In this document: piece after piece, positions 2-8,699 of the stretch | Position numbering within the stretch: the first letter of the stretch is position 1 | How the letters are laid out: each line of letters begins with the position of its first letter | Virus record (IMG/VR): IMGVR_UViG_3300048589_000150 | Span: 1-26,227 of that record | DNA: 26,227 bases | Source: a virus | Strand: one strand, 5' to 3' | The notes under the pieces: generated by a model | Databases searched by the model: none | What the model was told of the DNA's origin: nothing | The model's input: the letters and a program-made list of their open reading frames with translations, nothing else | Translations under genes and position numbers: made by a program

Positions 2-181
2 GGCTGGACCGCAGCGACGGGCACGGCGGCCAAAGGCGCTTACGCGACGTACGCCGGTCAAGACGTCAGTGCCGCGTACGTTGAGGCCGAGGCGCAGGCC
101 ACGGACGATGCGGTCAAGGCGCTGTCGCAGCGGTTCCTCGCATTGGAACAGGCGTGCCGTGCCGCAGGAGTGATTACCTAA
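2..181 (+). CDS. C-terminal fragment of an unidentified phage protein
   Basis: An open frame enters from the left edge and ends at a TAA (179-181) whose last A is the first base of the portal ATG. The visible 59 residues are alanine-rich and mostly helical in character, ending in the residues RAAGVIT. The 5' end lies outside the window. Genes directly before a portal are often terminase subunits or small packaging proteins, but nothing in this fragment resembles a terminase nuclease domain, so no function is assigned. The TAATG overlap implies translational coupling with the portal gene. Confidence 0.6.
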   Translation, partial: GWTAATGTAAKGAYATYAGQDVSAAYVEAEAQATDDAVKALSQRFLALEQACRAAGVIT

Positions 182-2127
182 TGCGCTGGCCCTGGACCAA
201 ATCACAACCCGCCGCGGACGCCGCCCCCACCGAGCGCGAAGCCGCCACGCTGTCGCCGTCGCAGCACAACCGCGCCGTGGTCGACCGGCGCCTGGCGGGC
301 CTCAAGGCCGCGACGGGCACCGGCACGGGGCAAGACGGCCTGTGCGGCGGGCTCACGCCCTGGGGCGCCCCGGCCGGCGAGGCCCCCGAGGCGCTGTTCG
401 CGTGGTATGCCGCGCAGGGCTTTCTCGGCTACCAGTTCTCGGCGCTGGTCGCCCAGCATTGGCTCGTGGACAAGGCGTGCAGCGAGCCCGCCCGGGACGC
501 GGTGCGCCACGGCTTCACCTGCACGATCGATGGGCTCGACGAGGACCAGCAGGACGACGCCCTGCACATGATCCACAAGGCGAACAAACGCATGGGCCTC
601 AACGCCGCCATGCAGGATTTCGTGCAGTTCTCGCGCGTGTTCGGCGTGCGGGTCTGGTTGCCTATCGTGGAGAGCACCGACCCGCTCTATTACGAGCTTC
701 CGTTCAACCCGGACGGCGTGACCCCGGGCAGCTATCGCGGAATGACGCAGATTGACCCGTACTGGGTCACGCCCATTTTGGACGCCGCGGCGTCAAGCAA
801 CCCGGCTAACCCGGGCTTCTACATGCCGACGTGGTGGCAAATTAACGGCAAGCTGTACCACCACACGCACCTCGTGGTCAGCACCCCGTTCCCGGTCGCC
901 GACATTCTCAAGCCCTCGTATCGCTACGGCGGCGTGCCCCTGCCGCAGCGCATCATGGAGCGCGTCTATGCGGCCGAGCGCACGGCCAACGAGGCGCCGC
1001 TGCTGACCATGACGAAGCGGCTGGTCACGTGGAAAACCGACCTGGCCGAAAAGCTGCTGGACCAGGCCAAAACCGTCGAGCACCTGCAGGGCCTGACCGA
1101 GTGGCGCGACAACTTCGGCGTCAACATGGTCGACACCGAAGATGCTATGGAACAGCTCGAGACGTCCCTGGCGGATCTGGACGACGTGATCATGTCGCAA
1201 TACGTGATCGTCGCGGCCATCGCGGGAATGCCGGTCACGAAACTGATGGGCACGCCGCCGAAGGGCATGAACGCGACCGGCGAGGGCGATGCGGAAAACT
1301 ACCAGCAATCGCTTGAGAGCATCCAGACGAACGACCTGGACCCGCTGCTGGAGCGCCACCTGCTGCTGCTGACGCGCTCCGAGATCGAGCCGGCCTTCAA
1401 GGTTGCGCCCGGCACGCTCGAGGTCACGGCGGACTGGAACCCGCTCGACAGCCCGTCCGCGAAGGAATACGCCGAGATCGACAAGCTCAAGGCCGAGCGC
1501 GACGAGGTACTGGCCAACGCCGGGGCGATCGACGGCATGGATATCCGGGCCCGGCTGCGCAACGACCGGGGCGGCGACTATACCGACCTGCCGGACGTGA
1601 TGCCCGATACTCCCGACGAAGAGGGCGAGGAAGCGAACGTGTTGGCCGAGGCGCAAGACGCCGACCCGCGCCCGCTGTACGTCTCGCGCCGGCTGGTCAA
1701 TACCGCCGAGTTCAAGCGGTGGGCGAAGGCGCAGGGGTTCGGGTCGGTCGTCGACGACCTGCACGTCACCGTGACCTTTAGCCGGTCGCCGGTCGATTGG
1801 ATGATCATGGGCGACAATTGGTCGAGCGACCAGAACGGCAATCTGACGATCGAGCCGGGCGGCGCGCGTCTGGTCGAACCACTGGGCGACAAGGGCGCCG
1901 TGGTGCTGCTGTTCAACTCGTCGGCGCTGGCCTATCGCCACGAACAGATGCGCGAGCGCGGGGCGTCGTGGGATCACCCCTCATATCAGCCGCACGTCAC
2001 GATCACCTATTCCGGCACGGACGTCGATCTGTCCAAGGTCGAGCCGTACCGCGGCAAGCTCGTGTTCGGCCCCGAGGTGTTCGCGCCGCTTGACGAGGAC
2101 TGGGCGTCTCGTGTCACGGAAGCGTAA
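181..2127 (+). CDS. Portal protein (DUF1073 family) with C-terminal Acb1-like 2H phosphoesterase domain
   Basis: The 648-residue product has a portal-type body at about residues 60-480, the DUF1073 class now named Acb1-like N-terminal in domain databases. The portal forms the ring at the capsid vertex through which DNA is packaged. Residues about 493-640 form a separate domain with two H-x-T motifs, H528-V-T530 and H605-V-T607. That is the signature of 2H phosphodiesterases and of the anti-CBASS nuclease Acb1, which cleaves cyclic oligonucleotide signals. An acidic stretch (about 475-492) links the two. ATG 181 was chosen over an upstream GTG at 154 because AGGAG (166-170) lies 10 nt upstream and the ATG overlaps the previous stop. 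The head morphogenesis gene starts inside its 3' end. The portal role is well supported. Activity of the 2H domain is inferred from the motifs only. Confidence 0.88.
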   Translation: MRWPWTKSQPAADAAPTEREAATLSPSQHNRAVVDRRLAGLKAATGTGTGQDGLCGGLTPWGAPAGEAPEALFAWYAAQGFLGYQFSALVAQHWLVDKACSEPARDAVRHGFTCTIDGLDEDQQDDALHMIHKANKRMGLNAAMQDFVQFSRVFGVRVWLPIVESTDPLYYELPFNPDGVTPGSYRGMTQIDPYWVTPILDAAASSNPANPGFYMPTWWQINGKLYHHTHLVVSTPFPVADILKPSYRYGGVPLPQRIMERVYAAERTANEAPLLTMTKRLVTWKTDLAEKLLDQAKTVEHLQGLTEWRDNFGVNMVDTEDAMEQLETSLADLDDVIMSQYVIVAAIAGMPVTKLMGTPPKGMNATGEGDAENYQQSLESIQTNDLDPLLERHLLLLTRSEIEPAFKVAPGTLEVTADWNPLDSPSAKEYAEIDKLKAERDEVLANAGAIDGMDIRARLRNDRGGDYTDLPDVMPDTPDEEGEEANVLAEAQDADPRPLYVSRRLVNTAEFKRWAKAQGFGSVVDDLHVTVTFSRSPVDWMIMGDNWSSDQNGNLTIEPGGARLVEPLGDKGAVVLLFNSSALAYRHEQMRERGASWDHPSYQPHVTITYSGTDVDLSKVEPYRGKLVFGPEVFAPLDEDWASRVTEA

Positions 2128-2974
2128 GGCCCGGCCGCCTCTGACCAAAGCCAAACAGGCGCAGGGTGCGGCGGTCCACAAGGGCAAGCCGCTCCACTAC
2201 AGCGCGGCGGTCGAAATGCGGTACACCGACACGCTGACCCGCATGGTGCGCCAGATGCGCCAGGCGACCGAAAGCGCGTTCCGGCGTCTCGACAGGCAAT
2301 TTGCCACCGCGCAGGACGCGCTGGGCATGGACGCCCCGTCGTACGCCTCGCAGGCGCGGATCCTGACCGATGCGCTGCGCAAGCGGTTCGCCGCGGCGTT
2401 TGCGCGCCGTGCCCGCCCGGCCGCCGAGCGGATGCAGGCCCAGGTCGACGCGGCGTCCTCGGCGTCGCTGCACTCGTCGCTGCGTGAACTGTCGGGCGGT
2501 ATCAGCCTGTCGACGCGCAGCATCCCCAAGCCCGCAATCGAAATGCTCAAGGCGAGCGTGACCGAGAACGTCGCGCTGATCCGCAGCATCCCCGACCAGT
2601 ATTTCCTCGACGTGCAGGGCGCCGTGATGCGCAATATCCAGCGCGGCGACGGCACGGCGGGCGTCCTGCGCGAGATCGAGCGCGCCGGCGGCGTGGCCAC
2701 GCGGCGGGCCGAGCTGATCGCCCGGGATCAGGTCAGCAAGGCCACGTCGGCGCTTAATGCGGCGCGGATGAAAGGGCTCGGCATCCGCAAGTTCGAGTGG
2801 ATCCACTCGGGCGGCGGGAAAGAGCCGCGCAAACTACACCAGCGCATGTCGGGCAACATCTATTCACTGGACGACCCGCCCGTGATAGACGAACGGACAG
2901 GCGAGCGCGGCCTGCCTGGCCAGCTCATCAACTGCCGGTGCGTCATGCGCCCGGTTTTGGAGTTCGAGGAATAG
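2111..2974 (+). CDS. Phage head morphogenesis protein (SPP1 gp7 / Mu gpF family)
   Basis: The 287-residue basic protein has a helical N-terminal two thirds. Its C-terminal domain, from about residue 195, is typical of Mu F/SPP1 gp7 proteins: ELIARDQ, a tryptophan-containing strand followed by a lysine/arginine-rich turn and histidine (RKLHQRMSG), and the terminal LINCRCVMRP motif. These minor head proteins bind the portal and are carried in the capsid; some affect DNA delivery. The start is taken as GTG 2111, overlapping the portal stop by 17 nt, with GAGGA at 2095-2099. A TTG at 2090 is possible but would lengthen the overlap. Position directly after the portal is the usual arrangement. Confidence 0.85.
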   Translation: MSRKRKARPPLTKAKQAQGAAVHKGKPLHYSAAVEMRYTDTLTRMVRQMRQATESAFRRLDRQFATAQDALGMDAPSYASQARILTDALRKRFAAAFARRARPAAERMQAQVDAASSASLHSSLRELSGGISLSTRSIPKPAIEMLKASVTENVALIRSIPDQYFLDVQGAVMRNIQRGDGTAGVLREIERAGGVATRRAELIARDQVSKATSALNAARMKGLGIRKFEWIHSGGGKEPRKLHQRMSGNIYSLDDPPVIDERTGERGLPGQLINCRCVMRPVLEFEE

Positions 2975-2976
2975 TT

Positions 2977-3537
2977 ATGCCGTGTGTTTACTGGGTACAT
3001 TTGCCGGAACACACCGACATCACGACCGAGGGGTACGTGGGGTTCACAAAATATTCCGCCAAAAGTCGTTGGACGCGCCATCGCCGAGAGATCGTCAAAG
3101 GGGCGCGGCGATGCCGTGGATTGGCGGAAGCCGCGGACCGGCACGGGCTCGGCGCGATGCGCGTGCGCACGCTGGTCGTCGCGCCACTCGACGAGCGTGT
3201 CGCCATTGAGGGGCGGCTGCGCCCCTACGCCCATACTGGCTGGAACATCGGCCCAGGCGGTCAATCGCCCGTGCTGGGCCGTAAGCACACACCTGAGTCG
3301 TTGGTTAAGATCAACGCGCACAAGAAAGGACGTGTCGTGACGGCCGAAACGCGCGCTAAGATCGCAGCGACGTTGAGGGGCAACACGAATGCAAAGGGTG
3401 CGGACGCCGGAAATGGTCGAGACGTACCGGGAACGGGGGCGCAAACTCCGCCACACGGCCGAAGCAAAAGCGCGCATCGGGGAGGCAAGCCGCCTAAACA
3501 AACTGGCGTACTGGGCGCGAAAGCGAGCGGAAAATGA
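2977..3537 (+). CDS. Free-standing GIY-YIG homing endonuclease with NUMOD3 motif (C-terminus probably frame-disrupted)
   Basis: The 186-residue frame starts at ATG 2977, with GAGGA 6 nt upstream. The GIY-YIG nuclease core is visible as V4-Y5 and Y20-V21-G22, followed by an arginine-rich helix (R32, R35), E78 in AIEGRLRPY and N90 in GWNIGPGG. Residues 101-133 hold NUMOD3-type DNA-binding repeats ([22 protein letters not shown]). Such enzymes cut phage DNA lacking the gene and spread their own gene by repair. It sits between two head genes with no intron evident. After about residue 138 this frame turns into Gly/Pro/Lys-rich sequence with poor third-position GC. The +1 frame carries a further NUMOD3-like repeat instead (see 3389-3544). 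Family call is confident; integrity of the C-terminus is doubtful. Confidence 0.85.
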
Positions 3538-3544
3538 CGGCTAG
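3389..3544 (+). CDS. Displaced C-terminal NUMOD3 repeat of the homing endonuclease, or a separate 51-residue ORF
   Basis: Reading +1 relative to the endonuclease gives a 51-residue peptide containing [15 protein letters not shown] and [19 protein letters not shown], which matches the NUMOD3 pattern (TPE...GRK...T.E...KI). Third-position GC counted by hand is about 30 of 43 codons here, against about 21 of 41 in the endonuclease frame over the same bases. A one-base change in or near AAAGGG (3393-3398) would join the two frames. Alternatively ATG 3389, with GAGGGG (3375-3380) 8 nt upstream, could start an independent DNA-binding peptide. It ends 11 nt inside the protease gene. Confidence 0.5.
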
Positions 3545-4640
3545 AATTTATGACCAAAATGGGTGGTTCGCTGTCCGTAACAACCCGCTGTCCAAGGTCG
3601 GCGTCTTCCCGTATCTCGGCGCGAGCATCGGGGCCGACGAGCCCGACCGCGTGTACATGGTCTATCGGCCCGCCGAGGAACTGGGCGCGCCCGAGTGCGT
3701 GGACAGCTTCAAGACTGTGCCGATCATCGACGACCACGAAATGCTTGGGTCGGTCGACGTCGGCCTGACGCCCGTGGAGCGCAAAGGCGTCGGCGGGGTC
3801 ACGGGGGATCTGGTCGAGTTCGACGAGGCGACCGGCGTGCTGCGCGGGAACCTCAAGATTTTCTCCGAAGCCCTGGCGCGCCAGATCAACGGCGGCAAGA
3901 AAGAATTGTCGTGCGGATATCGCTGCGAGTACGATTTTTCGCCCGGAACGTGGAACGGCGTTAGATATGACGTTGTGCAACGGAAAATGCGTGGTAATCA
4001 TGTCGCCGTGGTGAAAGCGGGTCGCATGGGCCCGGACGTCGCCGTTTTGGATCAAAAATTCACGTACGACCACGTGGACACACAGGAGCTCCGACCCGTG
4101 CTGGACAAAGAAACGCAGGACGCCATCGACGCCGCCGTGACCAAGGCGACCGAAGGCATCACCGCCACCGTGACCAAGGCCGTCGCCGACGCCATGCCCG
4201 CCGCTCTCGCCAAGGCGAAAGAGGACGACGAGGCCGAGGACATGTCGCCCGACGAGGACGACAAGGCTCTGGACGCCAAAGTCGCCAAGGCCGTCGCGGA
4301 CGCCCGCGCCGCTGACGCCGCCGAGATCGCGTCGCTCAAGGATCAACTTGCCGCGGCCAAGCCGACGCTCGACGCGTTGGACGCCCGCACCGCCGCCGAG
4401 GACAAGGCCACGCTGGTCGAGCGTCTCAAGCCGCATGTCGGGTCGTTCGACCACGCCGCCATGGACACCGATGCGGTGGTCAAGTACGGCCTCGACAATA
4501 TGCAGATCATGGGCGTCGTGCCCGGCACCGAGCGCGCCGTGCTGGACGGCTACCTGCGCGCCAAGCCGCTGCCCGTGCCCATGACCGGCGACGCCGCCAT
4601 CCCGACCGACAGCCCGGTCGCCAACTACATCAAGGGGTAA
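3534..4640 (+). CDS. Prohead protease-scaffold fusion (DUF2213)
   Basis: The 368-residue product has an N-terminal protease-like domain (about 1-175) of the DUF2213 family. Conserved candidates for the catalytic residues of an HK97-type serine protease fold are H68 (IIDDHEM), S126 (KELSCGY) and H156 (RGNHVAVV). Residues about 185-300 are Ala/Glu/Asp/Lys-rich and predicted coiled coil, as in a scaffolding domain, and the C-terminus is a compact segment. These proteins template procapsid assembly, then cleave the scaffold and sometimes the capsid protein. It begins with an ATGA overlap on the endonuclease stop and is followed by cement and capsid genes, the expected order. The catalytic assignment is by pattern, not alignment. 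Confidence 0.85.
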
Positions 4641-4647
4641 CGCCGCC

Positions 4648-5214
4648 ATGGCCTTCCAATCCACTGTTGCCGCCCAGATCGGGTTCGGCGTCGTCGGCGA
4701 ACTGGCCGTCGAGGGCCCGCTGGTCTCCCAGCCCGCCCGCATCGTCTCGGGCGACGCGGCCAACAACGTCGTCGGTCGCGCTTTCACCGTGACCTCGGGC
4801 GCCACCGGCTCGTGGGACGGCACCTCGGCGGATGCGGGCGACCCCGCCGCCTTGGTCGCCGCAGCGGGCGGAACCAACGCGTTCGCGGGCATTCTGGCCA
4901 ACCCGAAGGTCTACCCGGGCCTCGGCACCGTCGCGGGCGGCACGCTCGCCCCGACCCTGACCGTCCCGAACCAGACGATCGGCGAACTGATCCAGGAGCA
5001 CCCGGGCGTCATCGTCGCTCTGGGCGCCGCTGCCGACGTCGGCGACGTGGTGTATTACGCCAACGCCACCGGCATTCTGGCCACGACCGCCCCGGGCGCT
5101 GCGGCCCCGGCCAGCCATTCCGGCCCGATCGGTCGCGTCGAACGCTACGACCTGACCGGCTCCGGTCTGGCCGTTATCTCTGTCTTCACTCCGCGCATTC
5201 CGGCCGGCGAATAA
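4648..5214 (+). CDS. Structural cement / head decoration protein (Gp24-like)
   Basis: The 188-residue Gly/Ala/Val/Thr-rich beta protein matches the cement/decoration class usually found just upstream of a DUF2184 capsid gene. Features are an N-terminal segment beginning MAFQSTVAAQIGFGVVGE, a central run of short beta strands with NAFAGILANPK, and a C-terminal GRVERYDLTGSGLAVISVF segment. It probably binds the outer capsid lattice and stabilises it after expansion. ATG 4648 follows the protease stop by 7 nt, with AAGGGG inside the protease 3' end as ribosome binding site. No signal peptide or membrane segment is present. Confidence 0.75.
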   Translation: MAFQSTVAAQIGFGVVGELAVEGPLVSQPARIVSGDAANNVVGRAFTVTSGATGSWDGTSADAGDPAALVAAAGGTNAFAGILANPKVYPGLGTVAGGTLAPTLTVPNQTIGELIQEHPGVIVALGAAADVGDVVYYANATGILATTAPGAAAPASHSGPIGRVERYDLTGSGLAVISVFTPRIPAGE

Positions 5215-5227
5215 GGAACCCTGAACG

Positions 5228-6361
5228 ATGTCTCAAGTTCACAGCGCCTTTGACGGGGCCGGATATGTCAAGCGGGGTCCGCTCGCGCTGGACGCCTCGC
5301 AGGTCAGCGACACGATCGCCGCCGAACTGGCGCTGATCGGCATTCACTTCGGTGCGGACCATCGCCAGCAGGTCAAGAACCTGACCGCCATGGCCCTCGC
5401 CGCCGGCGCCATGGACGCCGCGCCGGATCCGCAGCCCACGGTGTACGCGGGCAACGTCGGTGCGCCGATCCAGTTCCTGCAAAAGTGGCTCCCCGGCTTC
5501 GTCCGGTCGGTCACGCAGGCCCGCAAGATCGACGAACTGGTCGGCCAGATGACGGCCGGCGACTGGGCGGACGAAGAGGTCATCCAGGGCTCGATGGAGC
5601 TGACCGGCCTTGCCGTCCCGTACGGCGACTACACGAACGTGCCGCTCGCCTCGTGGAACTTCGGTTTCGACCGCCGCACCATCGTGCGGTTCGAGGAAGG
5701 TCTGCGCGTCGGTCGCCTCGAGGAAGCCCGCTCGGGCAAGATCGGCGTTTCGTCCGGTGCGACCAAGCGTTCCGCCGCCGCCCTGGCGCTGGACATTCAG
5801 CGCAACCGGGTCGGTTTCTACGGCTACAACGCCGCGAACAACCGCACTTACGGTTTCCTGAACGACCCGGCGCTGCCCGCGTACGTCGCCGTGACCGGCG
5901 CTGCGTGGACCTCGGCGACCTTCCTGGTGATGACCGCCCAGATCCGCACCGCTCTGGCCGCCCTGCGCACCCAGTCGGGCGACACGATCGACCCGAACAC
6001 CGCCCAGATCACGATGGCCGTTGCGTCCAACCGCATCGACTATCTGACCACGACCACGGATTTCGGTATCTCGGTCAAGGGCTGGCTGAATGAGACCTAC
6101 CCGAACGTCCGCGTCGTCTCGGCTCCCGAGCTGAACGGTGCGAACGGCGGCGCCAACGTCTTCTACCTGTATGCCGACCGGGCGACCGACGACAACGGGT
6201 CGGACGACGGCGGGCAAACGATGGTGCAGATCGTCCCGAGCCGCTTCATGCTGGTCGGTGTCGAACAGCAGGCCAAGGCGTACGTCGAGGACTATGCGAA
6301 CGCGACGGCCGGCGTGCTGGTCAAGCGCCCGTATCTGGTGGTCCGTTACACCGGCATCTAG
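5228..6361 (+). CDS. Major capsid protein (DUF2184)
   Basis: The 377-residue product matches the DUF2184 major capsid family, an HK97-fold group. Characteristic parts are the helical N-terminal region with ARKIDELVGQMTAGDW, the central strand region with GDYTNVPLASWNFGFDRRT, the EARSGKIG loop, and the C-terminal QIVPSRFMLVGVE and GVLVKRPYLVVRYTGI strands. Its length is normal for the family. A strong AAGGA (5213-5217) precedes ATG 5228 by 10 nt. The gene is followed by a rho-independent terminator at 6387-6417, consistent with its high expression and with reduced transcription of the tail genes downstream. Confidence 0.9.
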   Translation: MSQVHSAFDGAGYVKRGPLALDASQVSDTIAAELALIGIHFGADHRQQVKNLTAMALAAGAMDAAPDPQPTVYAGNVGAPIQFLQKWLPGFVRSVTQARKIDELVGQMTAGDWADEEVIQGSMELTGLAVPYGDYTNVPLASWNFGFDRRTIVRFEEGLRVGRLEEARSGKIGVSSGATKRSAAALALDIQRNRVGFYGYNAANNRTYGFLNDPALPAYVAVTGAAWTSATFLVMTAQIRTALAALRTQSGDTIDPNTAQITMAVASNRIDYLTTTTDFGISVKGWLNETYPNVRVVSAPELNGANGGANVFYLYADRATDDNGSDDGGQTMVQIVPSRFMLVGVEQQAKAYVEDYANATAGVLVKRPYLVVRYTGI

Positions 6362-6386
6362 TCACGGGCGGAACAATAGGCTACGC

Positions 6387-6417
6387 AAGGGGCTCTGCAA
6401 TCGCGGGGCCCCTTTTC
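6387..6417 (+). terminator. Rho-independent terminator after the major capsid gene
   Basis: AAGGGGC (6387-6393) pairs with GCCCCTT (6408-6414) around a 14-nt loop, and the right arm runs into a TTTT tract (6413-6416). It lies 26 nt after the capsid stop and before the ribosome binding site of the next gene. A short T-run suggests partial termination that lowers expression of the neck and tail genes. Confidence 0.75.
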
Positions 6418-6443
6418 GTATGCCCGCCAGGAGGACAGAAACC

Positions 6444-6869
6444 ATGGCCAAGGCCAAACACGACCATTACGTCTTTTCGACCATGTCGGCCCCCGTGACC
6501 TATTCCACCTCGCGCGAGGTGCCGGGCCGCGACCTGCCCGAGATTATCCCGGGCATCACCATCGCGGGCGGCGTCGGCGTCGCGGACAAGAAAACGCTGG
6601 TCACGCCGCAGGGCGCAATGGTTACGGGTATCAGCGCCGAACAGCTCGCCCGTCTGCGCGAGGACCGCGTGTTCATCGAGCACGAAAAGAATGGCGCGAT
6701 CCGCGTATCGGATCACGACGAGGAGCCCGAGGTGGTCGCGTCGGACATGCGCGGCCGCGACGAGAGCTCCCCGATCACGCCGCAGGACTACGAGGCCGAG
6801 GGCAAGGAAGCGCCCAAGGTCGGCGCGGACGTCGAGGACGCCCCGAAGCGCAACCCCCGCAAGGCGTAA
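6444..6869 (+). CDS. Uncharacterised head/neck-region protein
   Basis: This 141-residue protein lies between the capsid gene and the first connector. The frame is open further upstream, but ATG 6444 is chosen because AGGAGG (6429-6434) lies 9 nt before it and the terminator lies upstream. Residues 1-75 contain short strands and a glycine-rich turn (GITIAGGVGVADKK). The rest is strongly charged with many Glu/Asp and a basic tail, probably disordered. No family is recognised. By position it may be a minor head or connector-associated protein. Confidence 0.7.
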   Translation: MAKAKHDHYVFSTMSAPVTYSTSREVPGRDLPEIIPGITIAGGVGVADKKTLVTPQGAMVTGISAEQLARLREDRVFIEHEKNGAIRVSDHDEEPEVVASDMRGRDESSPITPQDYEAEGKEAPKVGADVEDAPKRNPRKA

Positions 6870-6875
6870 CACTCC

Positions 6876-7313
6876 GTGGCGCAGCACACGCTCGACATTC
6901 CGGCATTCCGTCTCGCCTTCCCGGCGTTCGCCAACACGACCACCTACCCCGACGCGACGATCACGCTGCGCTGGGGCGAGGCGGTCGTGTATCTGGGCGA
7001 CTATGACGGATGCCTCTTGTCGGGCGTGGCGCTGCAGTCCGCTCTCAACTACCTGACGGCGCACCTGCTGGCGTCGTTCGACATTATCGCCCGGGGCCAG
7101 ACGCCGGGCATCGTCACCGACAGCCGCGTGGACAAGGTCGCCGTGAGCCTGGCGCCCCCGCCGACCCGCGACGGATGGCAATGGTGGCTGGCCACGACGC
7201 CGTACGGCGTCCAGCTTTGGGCGCTGCTGACCGCCAAATCCGCCGGCGGCTGGTACGTCGGGGGTCGCCCCGAGCGTCTCGGCTTCCGGCGCGTCGGCGG
7301 GGGCTTCGGCTAA
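6876..7313 (+). CDS. DUF4054 head-tail connector protein
   Basis: The 145-residue product has the DUF4054 pattern: an N-terminal FRLAFPAFANTTTYPDATI segment, a helical middle with QSALNYLTAHLLA, a strand with VDKVAVSLAPPP, and a C-terminal WLATTPYGVQLWAL helix followed by a glycine-rich tail. Proteins of this class sit directly under the portal as connector or adaptor rings. GTG 6876 is used as start, 6 nt after the previous stop; the Shine-Dalgarno sequence is weak. The stop TAA overlaps the next ATG (TAATG), so the next gene is probably translationally coupled. Confidence 0.8.
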   Translation: MAQHTLDIPAFRLAFPAFANTTTYPDATITLRWGEAVVYLGDYDGCLLSGVALQSALNYLTAHLLASFDIIARGQTPGIVTDSRVDKVAVSLAPPPTRDGWQWWLATTPYGVQLWALLTAKSAGGWYVGGRPERLGFRRVGGGFG

Positions 7314-7774
7314 TGTCCGTGCGTCGGGACCGCTCGGGCGGCGACCGCCTGACCGTGGCGCTGCGTGACATTGACGGGCTGGTCGGCAAGACCGGCTATT
7401 TCGAGACGGCCAAATACCCGGACGGAACCCCCGTGGCCTATGTGGCGACCATTCACGAATACGGCGCGGCTGGCCAAGGCATCCCCGCTCGCCCGACCAT
7501 GCGTCCGACCGCCGCGGACAAGCGCACCGAGTGGGCCGGGCTGATGGCCAAGGGCGCACGCGACGCCCTCAACGGCAAGATGACCTCCCGCGACGCCTTG
7601 GAGCGTCTGACGTTGCGCGCGGCCGGGGACGTGTCCAAGGCCATCAGCGCATTGCAGACGCCCGCTCTGTCGCCGCGCACCATCGCGCGCAAGGGCTTCG
7701 ACAAGCCGCTCGTCGACACCGGCCTGATGCTCCGCAGCGTGACGGGCGTGGTGGAGCCGAAGGGGTCGCAATGA
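7313..7774 (+). CDS. HK97 gp10-like / tail completion (virion morphogenesis) protein
   Basis: The 153-residue product carries the features of HK97 gp10/Mu G-type neck proteins: YVATIHEYGAAGQGIPARP followed by a helix, then an internal helical segment and the C-terminal KPLVDTGLMLRSVTGVV strand motif. These small proteins join heads to tails or cap the tail. It starts at ATG 7313 inside the DUF4054 stop, and its own stop forms an ATGA overlap with the next gene. The frame runs further upstream, but that part is out of frame with the connector gene and has no support. Confidence 0.75.
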   Translation: MSVRRDRSGGDRLTVALRDIDGLVGKTGYFETAKYPDGTPVAYVATIHEYGAAGQGIPARPTMRPTAADKRTEWAGLMAKGARDALNGKMTSRDALERLTLRAAGDVSKAISALQTPALSPRTIARKGFDKPLVDTGLMLRSVTGVVEPKGSQ

Positions 7775-8157
7775 GCACGCCGGGATCCAATGTGCTCGCC
7801 CTGGCGCTGACCGCCATTGCGCCCCAGCCCGTCGAGTATCGGGCGTATACCGGCAAGACGACGCGTGCGGACGGCCAGCAGGTCGCCGCGTTTGCCGCCC
7901 CCGTGACCCTGTACGGCTCGTGGCAGGCCGTCCCGTCGTCGGACAAGGCGGCGTACGGCCTTACGCTGTCGATGGACTATGCGGTGTTTTATGCCTCGAC
8001 GCCGATGCAGAACGCCGTGCGCGACGAGGCGCCCGACCAGTTCACCTATGCGGGCCGTCGCTGGTCGATCGTGTCGCGCACGGGCTGGTTCGTCATGGAC
8101 GGATGGGATAGCGTGCTCGTCGTCGATATCGGCCCCGAACCCACGCCCGAACCATGA
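7771..8157 (+). CDS. Uncharacterised neck protein (possible head-closure or collar protein)
   Basis: The 128-residue product is translated from ATG 7771 in an ATGA overlap with the gene before and has another ATGA overlap with the one after. It is mostly beta: VEYRAYTGKTTR, a mid-protein YGSWQAVPSS strand, and FTYAGRRWSIVSRTGWFVMDGWDSVLVV near the end. Head-closure (stopper) proteins have a similar size and position between connector and tail terminator. No specific family is recognised from sequence, so the role is inferred from gene order only. Confidence 0.7.
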   Translation: MSTPGSNVLALALTAIAPQPVEYRAYTGKTTRADGQQVAAFAAPVTLYGSWQAVPSSDKAAYGLTLSMDYAVFYASTPMQNAVRDEAPDQFTYAGRRWSIVSRTGWFVMDGWDSVLVVDIGPEPTPEP

Positions 8158-8699
8158 CCGACTACGCCCGCGCCGTCACGATCCGCACCGCCCTGCTGGC
8201 CGGGCTCGTCGCCAACGGGTCGAGCGCCGAGGTCGTCCAGTTTGACCCGATGACCACGCAGGGGCGCCCGAGCGGGCCCGCCGTGCTGTTCCAAAAGCTG
8301 TTCGACCGCCGGTACGGCTTCGCCAAACGCGACGACGTGCCGGACCCGGACGAACCAACGCGGATGATCCACCGCGAGACCCAGTATTACGAGAGCACCT
8401 ACCAGTTCGAGGCGGTCGGGCCGTCCGCCCAGCCCGGCGCGACCTTGCCGACCGCAACGCCTTCGGACCTCGTGAACCTGGCCGCCGGCGTCGTGCAATC
8501 CGACGCGTTCATGGACGCTCTGCGGCAGGGCGGCCTGGCCGTCCTGCGCGTCACGCAGGTGCGCAACCCGTTCATGCAGAATGACCGGGAGCAATTTGAG
8601 GCGGCGCCGTCGTTTGATTTAGTAGTGACGCACGAACAGATTATGCTATCAACGACGCCAGCCGCCGTTGTCGGCGAACTCCGCATGGCGAGGGTCTAG
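8154..8699 (+). CDS. Tail terminator / neck protein (LIC_12616-like)
   Basis: The 181-residue product lies immediately before the sheath gene, where the LIC_12616-type neck/tail-terminator protein is normally encoded. It has an N-terminal helix (VTIRTALLAGLV), VVQFDPM strand, and a mid-region RETQYYESTYQFEAVG, which matches the outer strands of tail-terminator folds. Such proteins stop tube and sheath polymerisation and bind the neck. Bases 8611-8652 contain several codons rare in the window (TTA, GTA, CTA, TCA) though the frame stays intact. Confidence 0.65.
   Translation: MTDYARAVTIRTALLAGLVANGSSAEVVQFDPMTTQGRPSGPAVLFQKLFDRRYGFAKRDDVPDPDEPTRMIHRETQYYESTYQFEAVGPSAQPGATLPTATPSDLVNLAAGVVQSDAFMDALRQGGLAVLRVTQVRNPFMQNDREQFEAAPSFDLVVTHEQIMLSTTPAAVVGELRMARV

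Follow-up and report, generated by a model that had tools for sequence, protein, structure and literature searches.

The window (the whole stretch of DNA analyzed, 26,227 nt, positions 1 to 26,227 of IMG/VR record IMGVR_UViG_3300048589_000150) starts with a portal gene whose product carries an additional domain at its C terminus. The gene lies within a head cassette containing MuF, protease-family and capsid genes; genes for sheath, tape measure and baseplate come after these, and the contig is thus that of a small myophage. No terminase gene is seen in the window because the portal gene is at the contig edge. The source record, a virus contig, comes with no host genome. Among bacterial genomes, close relatives are found mostly as prophages of Caulobacteraceae, sphingomonads and rhizobia, and some occur in Pseudomonas and Xanthomonas. 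The features considered below are the following.

181..2127, plus strand: portal protein with a C-terminal Acb1 domain, 648 amino acids, a single open frame
433..1506, plus strand: DUF1073/Phage_portal_3 core, residues 85-442 (PF06381, E=2.1e-84)
1573..1665, plus strand: flexible acidic linker, residues ~465-495 (low pLDDT, hypervariable among relatives)
1663..2118, plus strand: segment cleanly missing in the sibling phage L247 (blastn)
1672..2109, plus strand: Acb1 2H phosphoesterase domain, residues 498-643 (PF23474, E=5.1e-38)
1678..1680, plus strand: Y500, counterpart of T4 Acb1 Y12 (nucleobase stacking; from alignment)
1762..1770, plus strand: catalytic motif 1, H528-V-T530 (T4 H44/T46; from alignment, in a predicted beta strand)
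1993..2001, plus strand: catalytic motif 2, H605-V-T607 (T4 H113/T115; from alignment)
2101..2103, plus strand: W641, counterpart of the T4 Acb1 lid residue W147 (from alignment)
2090..2974, plus strand: MuF-like head morphogenesis gene (PF04233, E=1.9e-15; phrog_324, head morphogenesis)
3534..4640, plus strand: DUF2213 protein of the head-maturation-protease family, a candidate processing protease (PF09979, E=3.8e-42; phrog_3778, head maturation protease, E=1e-107)
5228..6361, plus strand: major capsid protein (PF09950, E=3.9e-11; phrog_264)

The MuF-like gene has a probable GTG start near 2111 and overlaps there the 3′ end of the portal gene. Another frame, at 2797-3537 on the plus strand, overlaps the end of the MuF-like gene and has weak matches to phrog_314 (homing endonuclease) and NUMOD3; in the sibling L247, a different small gene occupies that place.

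The product of 181..2127 falls in the PHROG category of portal/minor head proteins. The ATG at 181 is taken as the start because the sister contig L002 has the same MRWPW start at an ATG. The core matches PF06381 with 283.7 bits (cut-off 33.8) and is 47% identical to Pbunavirus portals (44% to those of E217 and Pa193 in Foldseek). The AlphaFold2 model of the entire 648-residue chain has a pLDDT of 82.1, and its top Foldseek matches are the portals of E217, Pa193 and Pam3. In that model, the pLDDT falls below 50 at linker residues 465-471 and 473-492, after which comes a folded domain. Directly after the hypervariable linker, an Asp-Ala pair is present at −6/−5 before a conserved LYV in 176 of 181 DUF1073 fusions (residues 493-498 in the window, ~1657-1674); it is missing from the HK97-type fusions. 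At the border between linker and domain, such a pair might serve for processing or might cap the fold. An internal start yielding a free Acb1 was considered and rejected: an in-frame start with a Shine–Dalgarno-like site near the junction is present in 48 of the 208 fusions, fewer than in the +1 control frame (70 of 208), which is no enrichment. In the window portal, there is an in-frame GTG behind GAGGAAG, probably a chance product of Glu codons.

The sequence-only reading of this locus had pointed to two H-x-T motifs in a separate C-terminal domain, and both are present, H528-V-T530 and H605-V-T607, 77 residues apart. H-x-T triplets are common by chance and two of them alone are weak evidence. 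Residues 498-643 match PF23474 with 130.5 bits (cut-off 27). With phmmer, residues 525-643 match the crystallized Acb1 of FBB1 (7t26; E=3e-10 to 3e-9) and the domain matches the C terminus of the Pam3 portal (8hds; E=2.6e-30). A fold prediction had been asked for, and AlphaFold2, with an alignment of 67 relatives, gives for the domain a bilobed 2H fold with a pLDDT of 93.4. In a Foldseek search of the PDB, Acb1 crystal structures come first (7t27/7t26; E=1e-7, probability 1.00, TM 0.77-0.78 by target), above a Burkholderia phage phosphodiesterase and LigT. When 271 domains are aligned (208 fused and 63 others), H528, T530, H605 and T607 share columns with T4 H44, T46, H113 and T115. The profile match, the predicted fold, the conserved tetrad and the purifying selection described below support the earlier reading of an Acb1-like 2H domain, and mark residues 498-643 as a true member of the Acb1 family.

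T4-type Acb1 enzymes cleave the cyclic di- and trinucleotides of CBASS by acid–base catalysis with their two HxT motifs, and Y12 of T4 Acb1 has a role in nucleobase stacking (PMC9117128). Nine more standalone homologs have been published, all of which cut 3′3′-cGAMP and cAAA. With the Acb1 proteins T4 gp57B and FBB1 (PF23474), the window domain has in common the family, the fold, the HxT/HxT tetrad and the equivalences Y12 = Y500 and W147 = W641. It differs from them in being fused to a portal instead of being a free enzyme, and its activity is predicted. The position of T4 F107 is His599 here (aromatic or His throughout the family) and that of T4 W74 is Glu566, in a region where the alignment is uncertain. 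Given that the closest assayed Acb1 enzymes are only ~25% identical to the window domain and that there is no clear aromatic at the W74 position, the substrate may differ. Database labels for this family vary. The Acb1 genes of DSS3P8 (L005 4995-5447) and of Edwardsiella phage ZHS (L004 2116-2715) are labeled "prohead protease" in GenBank, a mislabel, as only Acb1 and related 2H models match them; the label probably spread from real Acb1–protease fusions such as L137. Many T4-like Acb1 genes are labeled "RNA ligase".

Some of the search patterns include motif 1, so that the conservation of motif 1 is biased in the sets so obtained. Because a search with the domain would skew the count, 88 DUF1073 portals were collected by their core alone: 27 carry Acb1, 60 do not and one is cut off. 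The statement of the sequence-only reading that DUF1073 portals are annotated as Acb1-like does not hold: the Pfam core is named "Phage portal protein", Acb1 is a separate entry, and the 60 portals just mentioned lack it. The complete H/T/H/[TS] tetrad is found in all 27 fusions of the core-sampled set, with 32 of 158 domain columns invariant and a median pairwise identity of 56%; the W641 column is Trp in 16 of these 27 and a gap in nine. In the 271-domain alignment, only nine columns are conserved at 98% or more, among them Y500, H528, T530 and H605. The H and T of motif 1 are invariant (208/208 fused and 63/63 other domains), the Y500 column is Tyr in 208/208 fused domains, and motif 2 has His in 206/208, with Thr or Ser always at the T607 position. 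The sole decayed copy among the 208 fusions is one protein present in L237 and L238, in which the second catalytic His is Tyr and the Thr is Ser. Between the window and its sister L002, dN/dS is 0.16 for the domain and 0.14 for the core (by simple counting, with synonymous sites partly saturated); domain and core are under the same purifying selection.

The domain is optional. In blastn, window positions 252-1595, 1621-1662 and 2119-2972 align with L247 at 85–87% and 1663-2118 do not; the L247 portal is intact and ends cleanly after the linker. The prophages L292 and L277 have portal cores 97.8% identical and flanks 94% identical, and only one of them has the Acb1 domain. On a tree of 102 portal cores, there are 13 changes between presence and absence of Acb1, at least nine of which are forced by well-supported branches. 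The clean loss, the difference between the two prophages and the repeated changes on the tree imply that the domain is not a structural part of the portal. Between the window and L022, identity is 75% for the domain but only 23% for the core, hence the module is transferred between portals that differ widely. In the tree of domains, few branches are supported, and the only supported grouping is that of all portal-fused domains. In the slot where other phages have the Acb1 tail, the prophage L298, compared with the nearly identical L292 (5300-6038), has a putAbiC (abortive-infection-like) gene on the opposite strand (5376-6299, minus strand), a hotspot of defense and counter-defense directly behind the portal core. 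With its active-site residues intact and its repeated gain and loss, the domain looks like a swappable counter-defense cargo, with predicted enzymatic activity, on a flexible portal tail.

Acb1 occurs on other head proteins as well. It forms the C-terminal part of fusions with Mu-type portals (L118, plus 13 assigned by similarity) and with HK97-type portals (L087 and four more). It stands at the N-terminal side of an S78 prohead protease (L137), a DUF2213 protein (L191) and XkdF-type proteases with ChaB (L230 and L231; in L243 it lies further in). It is also a part of proteins of the ADP-ribosyltransferase or another polyvalent type (L181, L184, L189, L200, L228). Standalone Acb1 genes are found beside a DUF1073 portal (phage ZHS and seven contigs) and between the terminase and the DUF1073 portal. 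The Acb1 portal fusions number in the hundreds, and at least 588 viral contigs encode portal-type Acb1 relatives according to one degenerate pattern. There are DUF1073 portal tails with other cargo, namely an ADP-ribosyltransferase (L300 3872-6040) and a PBECR3 nuclease (L283 2932-4887); those of L252 and L253 are ParB-like in appearance and have no Pfam match. Like MuF and polyvalent effector proteins, these portals place variable effector domains on head proteins, with a tail that also accepts ART and PBECR3; here, in contrast, the carrier is the portal and the cargo a putative signal-degrading enzyme instead of a toxin.

The closest solved cores are those of the Pbunavirus gp19 portals of E217 (8fvh) and Pa193 (9b41), with 44–47% identity. 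They too have a long C-terminal region without density (residues 529-765); that region, however, gave no Acb1 match in the searches made. In E217, the C-terminal barrel of the portal projects into the head (E217 paper). With the C-terminal side facing the head interior, up to 12 copies of the domain would be held there per ring. The Pam3 portal has the same two-domain architecture with a homologous C-terminal domain; its second motif is H-x-S and its core is only distantly related to that of the window. The deposited virion portal of Pam3 (8hds) contains 442 of 621 residues, and the Foldseek search of the PDB with the domain alone did not return 8hds, although a homologous domain should match at once. 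We conclude that the domain is not modeled in the Pam3 virion portal; it is possible that it is mobile there, or that it is cleaved off and then trapped or removed.

CBASS cyclases are far more frequent in genomes with the domain than in class-wide genomes (16/50 versus 8/289). Against randomly drawn, family-matched genomes, there is no clear excess in the hosts (4/21 versus 54/477, p=0.29). Pooling within seeded lysogens gives p=5e-4 in a sample chosen for the domain, in which genome G020 gave results that were not consistent with each other. We claim no association with CBASS, since the contrast shrank after family matching, the pooled sample was selected for the domain and the G020 results are discordant. 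In the prophage of Mesorhizobium sp. YIM 152430 (L178), genes for a SMODS nucleotide cyclase and a SLATT-like membrane effector form a CBASS-like pair (3348-4984, minus strand; the SLATT match does not reach the cut-off) immediately ahead of the terminase and portal-Acb1 genes (5068-8441), an alarm and a possible silencer together. Other SMODS-like matches, on L117, L302 and further contigs, look like the antisense of the terminase small subunit and were discarded; only that of L178 is real.

What could a portal do with such a domain? The evidence of sequence and model makes it probable that the domain is an active immune-nucleotide nuclease, although that it acts on immune nucleotides is something we infer. 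It would cut cyclic oligonucleotides of the CBASS type in the way that Acb1 does, as an intact 2H domain carried as an accessory module on the flexible portal tail. If it is active, we lean slightly toward its acting mainly in the producing cell, late, while it sits on procapsids and on portal subunits that are still free. Head proteins are abundant by then, and one of them can set off at least one CBASS system: in phage Bas13, it is the prohead protease that engages a CBASS sensor (PMC12409349). On balance, we favor a portal with an active Acb1-type nuclease that would work in the infected cell during head assembly. To be freed by the maturation protease and ejected along with the DNA might be a second, additional use of the domain.

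The main rival is a virion-delivered effector, in which the maturation protease would free the domain in the procapsid and the domain, packaged alongside the DNA and ejected as infection begins, would degrade immune signals before any phage gene is expressed. The sequence-only reading had allowed for delivery with the particle, at about 12 copies of the domain each, or for action during assembly; the case for delivery is weak, and a role in the producing cell while heads are built is at least as good a fit. Delivery was put forward for such fusions in PMC9503650. It would agree with the fusion partners, all head-assembly proteins, with the inward portal barrel, with the flexible and hypervariable linker and the Asp-Ala pair at the domain border, and with the gene of the DUF2213 maturation-protease family two genes downstream. 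The domain missing from the Pam3 virion model and the ADP-ribosyltransferase and PBECR nuclease domains of other portal tails, which are typical injected effectors, point the same way. Plain mobility also removes density, however, as for residues 529-765 of E217 and Pa193, and the cleavage site at the border is only a candidate. Portals, moreover, stay in the capsid and offer at most 12 copies per particle, a small dose of enzyme. These few copies against the many in the producing cell, together with the sensor triggered by a prohead protease, make us prefer action in the assembling cell; we hold delivery as the sole or main role to be unlikely.

Still less probable is a 2H enzyme directed at RNA (RNA-end processing or RNase) instead of cyclic immune nucleotides. 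In favor of it, structurally related 2H enzymes (the LigT/Usb1 type) work on RNA, an RNase role has been considered for polyvalent 2H domains (PMC5512222), and T4 W74 is not conserved in the window domain. Profile and fold nevertheless match Acb1 best, not LigT or Usb1; the domain retains Y500 and, where T4 has F107, an aromatic residue or His; and these 2H versions have reportedly never been seen with RNA ligases (PMC5512222). A structural or DNA-binding role only, in portal assembly or DNA packaging and with the catalytic residues as relics, is largely refuted and very improbable. The domain does belong to an essential head protein, and the second His is lost in one lineage (L237/L238), but siblings with cores 88–98% identical do without the domain, the tetrad is invariant in the 27 unbiased cases and the module is mobile between very different portals. 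That two HxT motifs arose by chance in an unrelated C-terminal extension, frequent as such triplets are, is refuted by the PF23474 match (E=5e-38), by Acb1 as best structural match and by the hundreds of relatives.

The class of portal–2H fusions and the idea of counter-signaling are already known. Fusions of 2H domains to MuF and portal domains, with degradation of host signaling nucleotides proposed, were described by Iyer et al. 2017 (PMC5512222), and the same fusions, now with packaging and injection, by Iyer et al. 2022 (PMC9503650). The architecture and the predicted role are the same here; the difference is that one case is examined for its tetrad, selection, loss in a sibling and protease fusions. 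In the literature searched (most subscription journals lie outside it), we did not find the fusions to maturation proteases, the presence and absence in near-identical siblings or the size of the family. Acb1 has been described as relatively rare, with ~280 known homologs (PMC9117128, PMC11722364). With at least 588 portal-type contigs from a single pattern, the largest reservoir of Acb1 may hide in proteins annotated as "portal" or "prohead protease".

A wider reading can be offered tentatively, and we consider it rather doubtful as a whole. The inward tail of DUF1073 portals might be a general slot for swappable effectors (Acb1, ADP-ribosyltransferase or PBECR nuclease), exchanged between nearly identical phages. 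Acb1 on portals and prohead proteases would then sit on the very head proteins that can trigger CBASS and would silence it at the source, and the Acb1 of L178 might restrain the prophage's own SMODS–SLATT system on induction. If the portal-borne domain is active, these phages couple counter-defense to head assembly, and this coupling can be tested directly in pairs from nature whose near-identical portals differ in having or lacking the domain.
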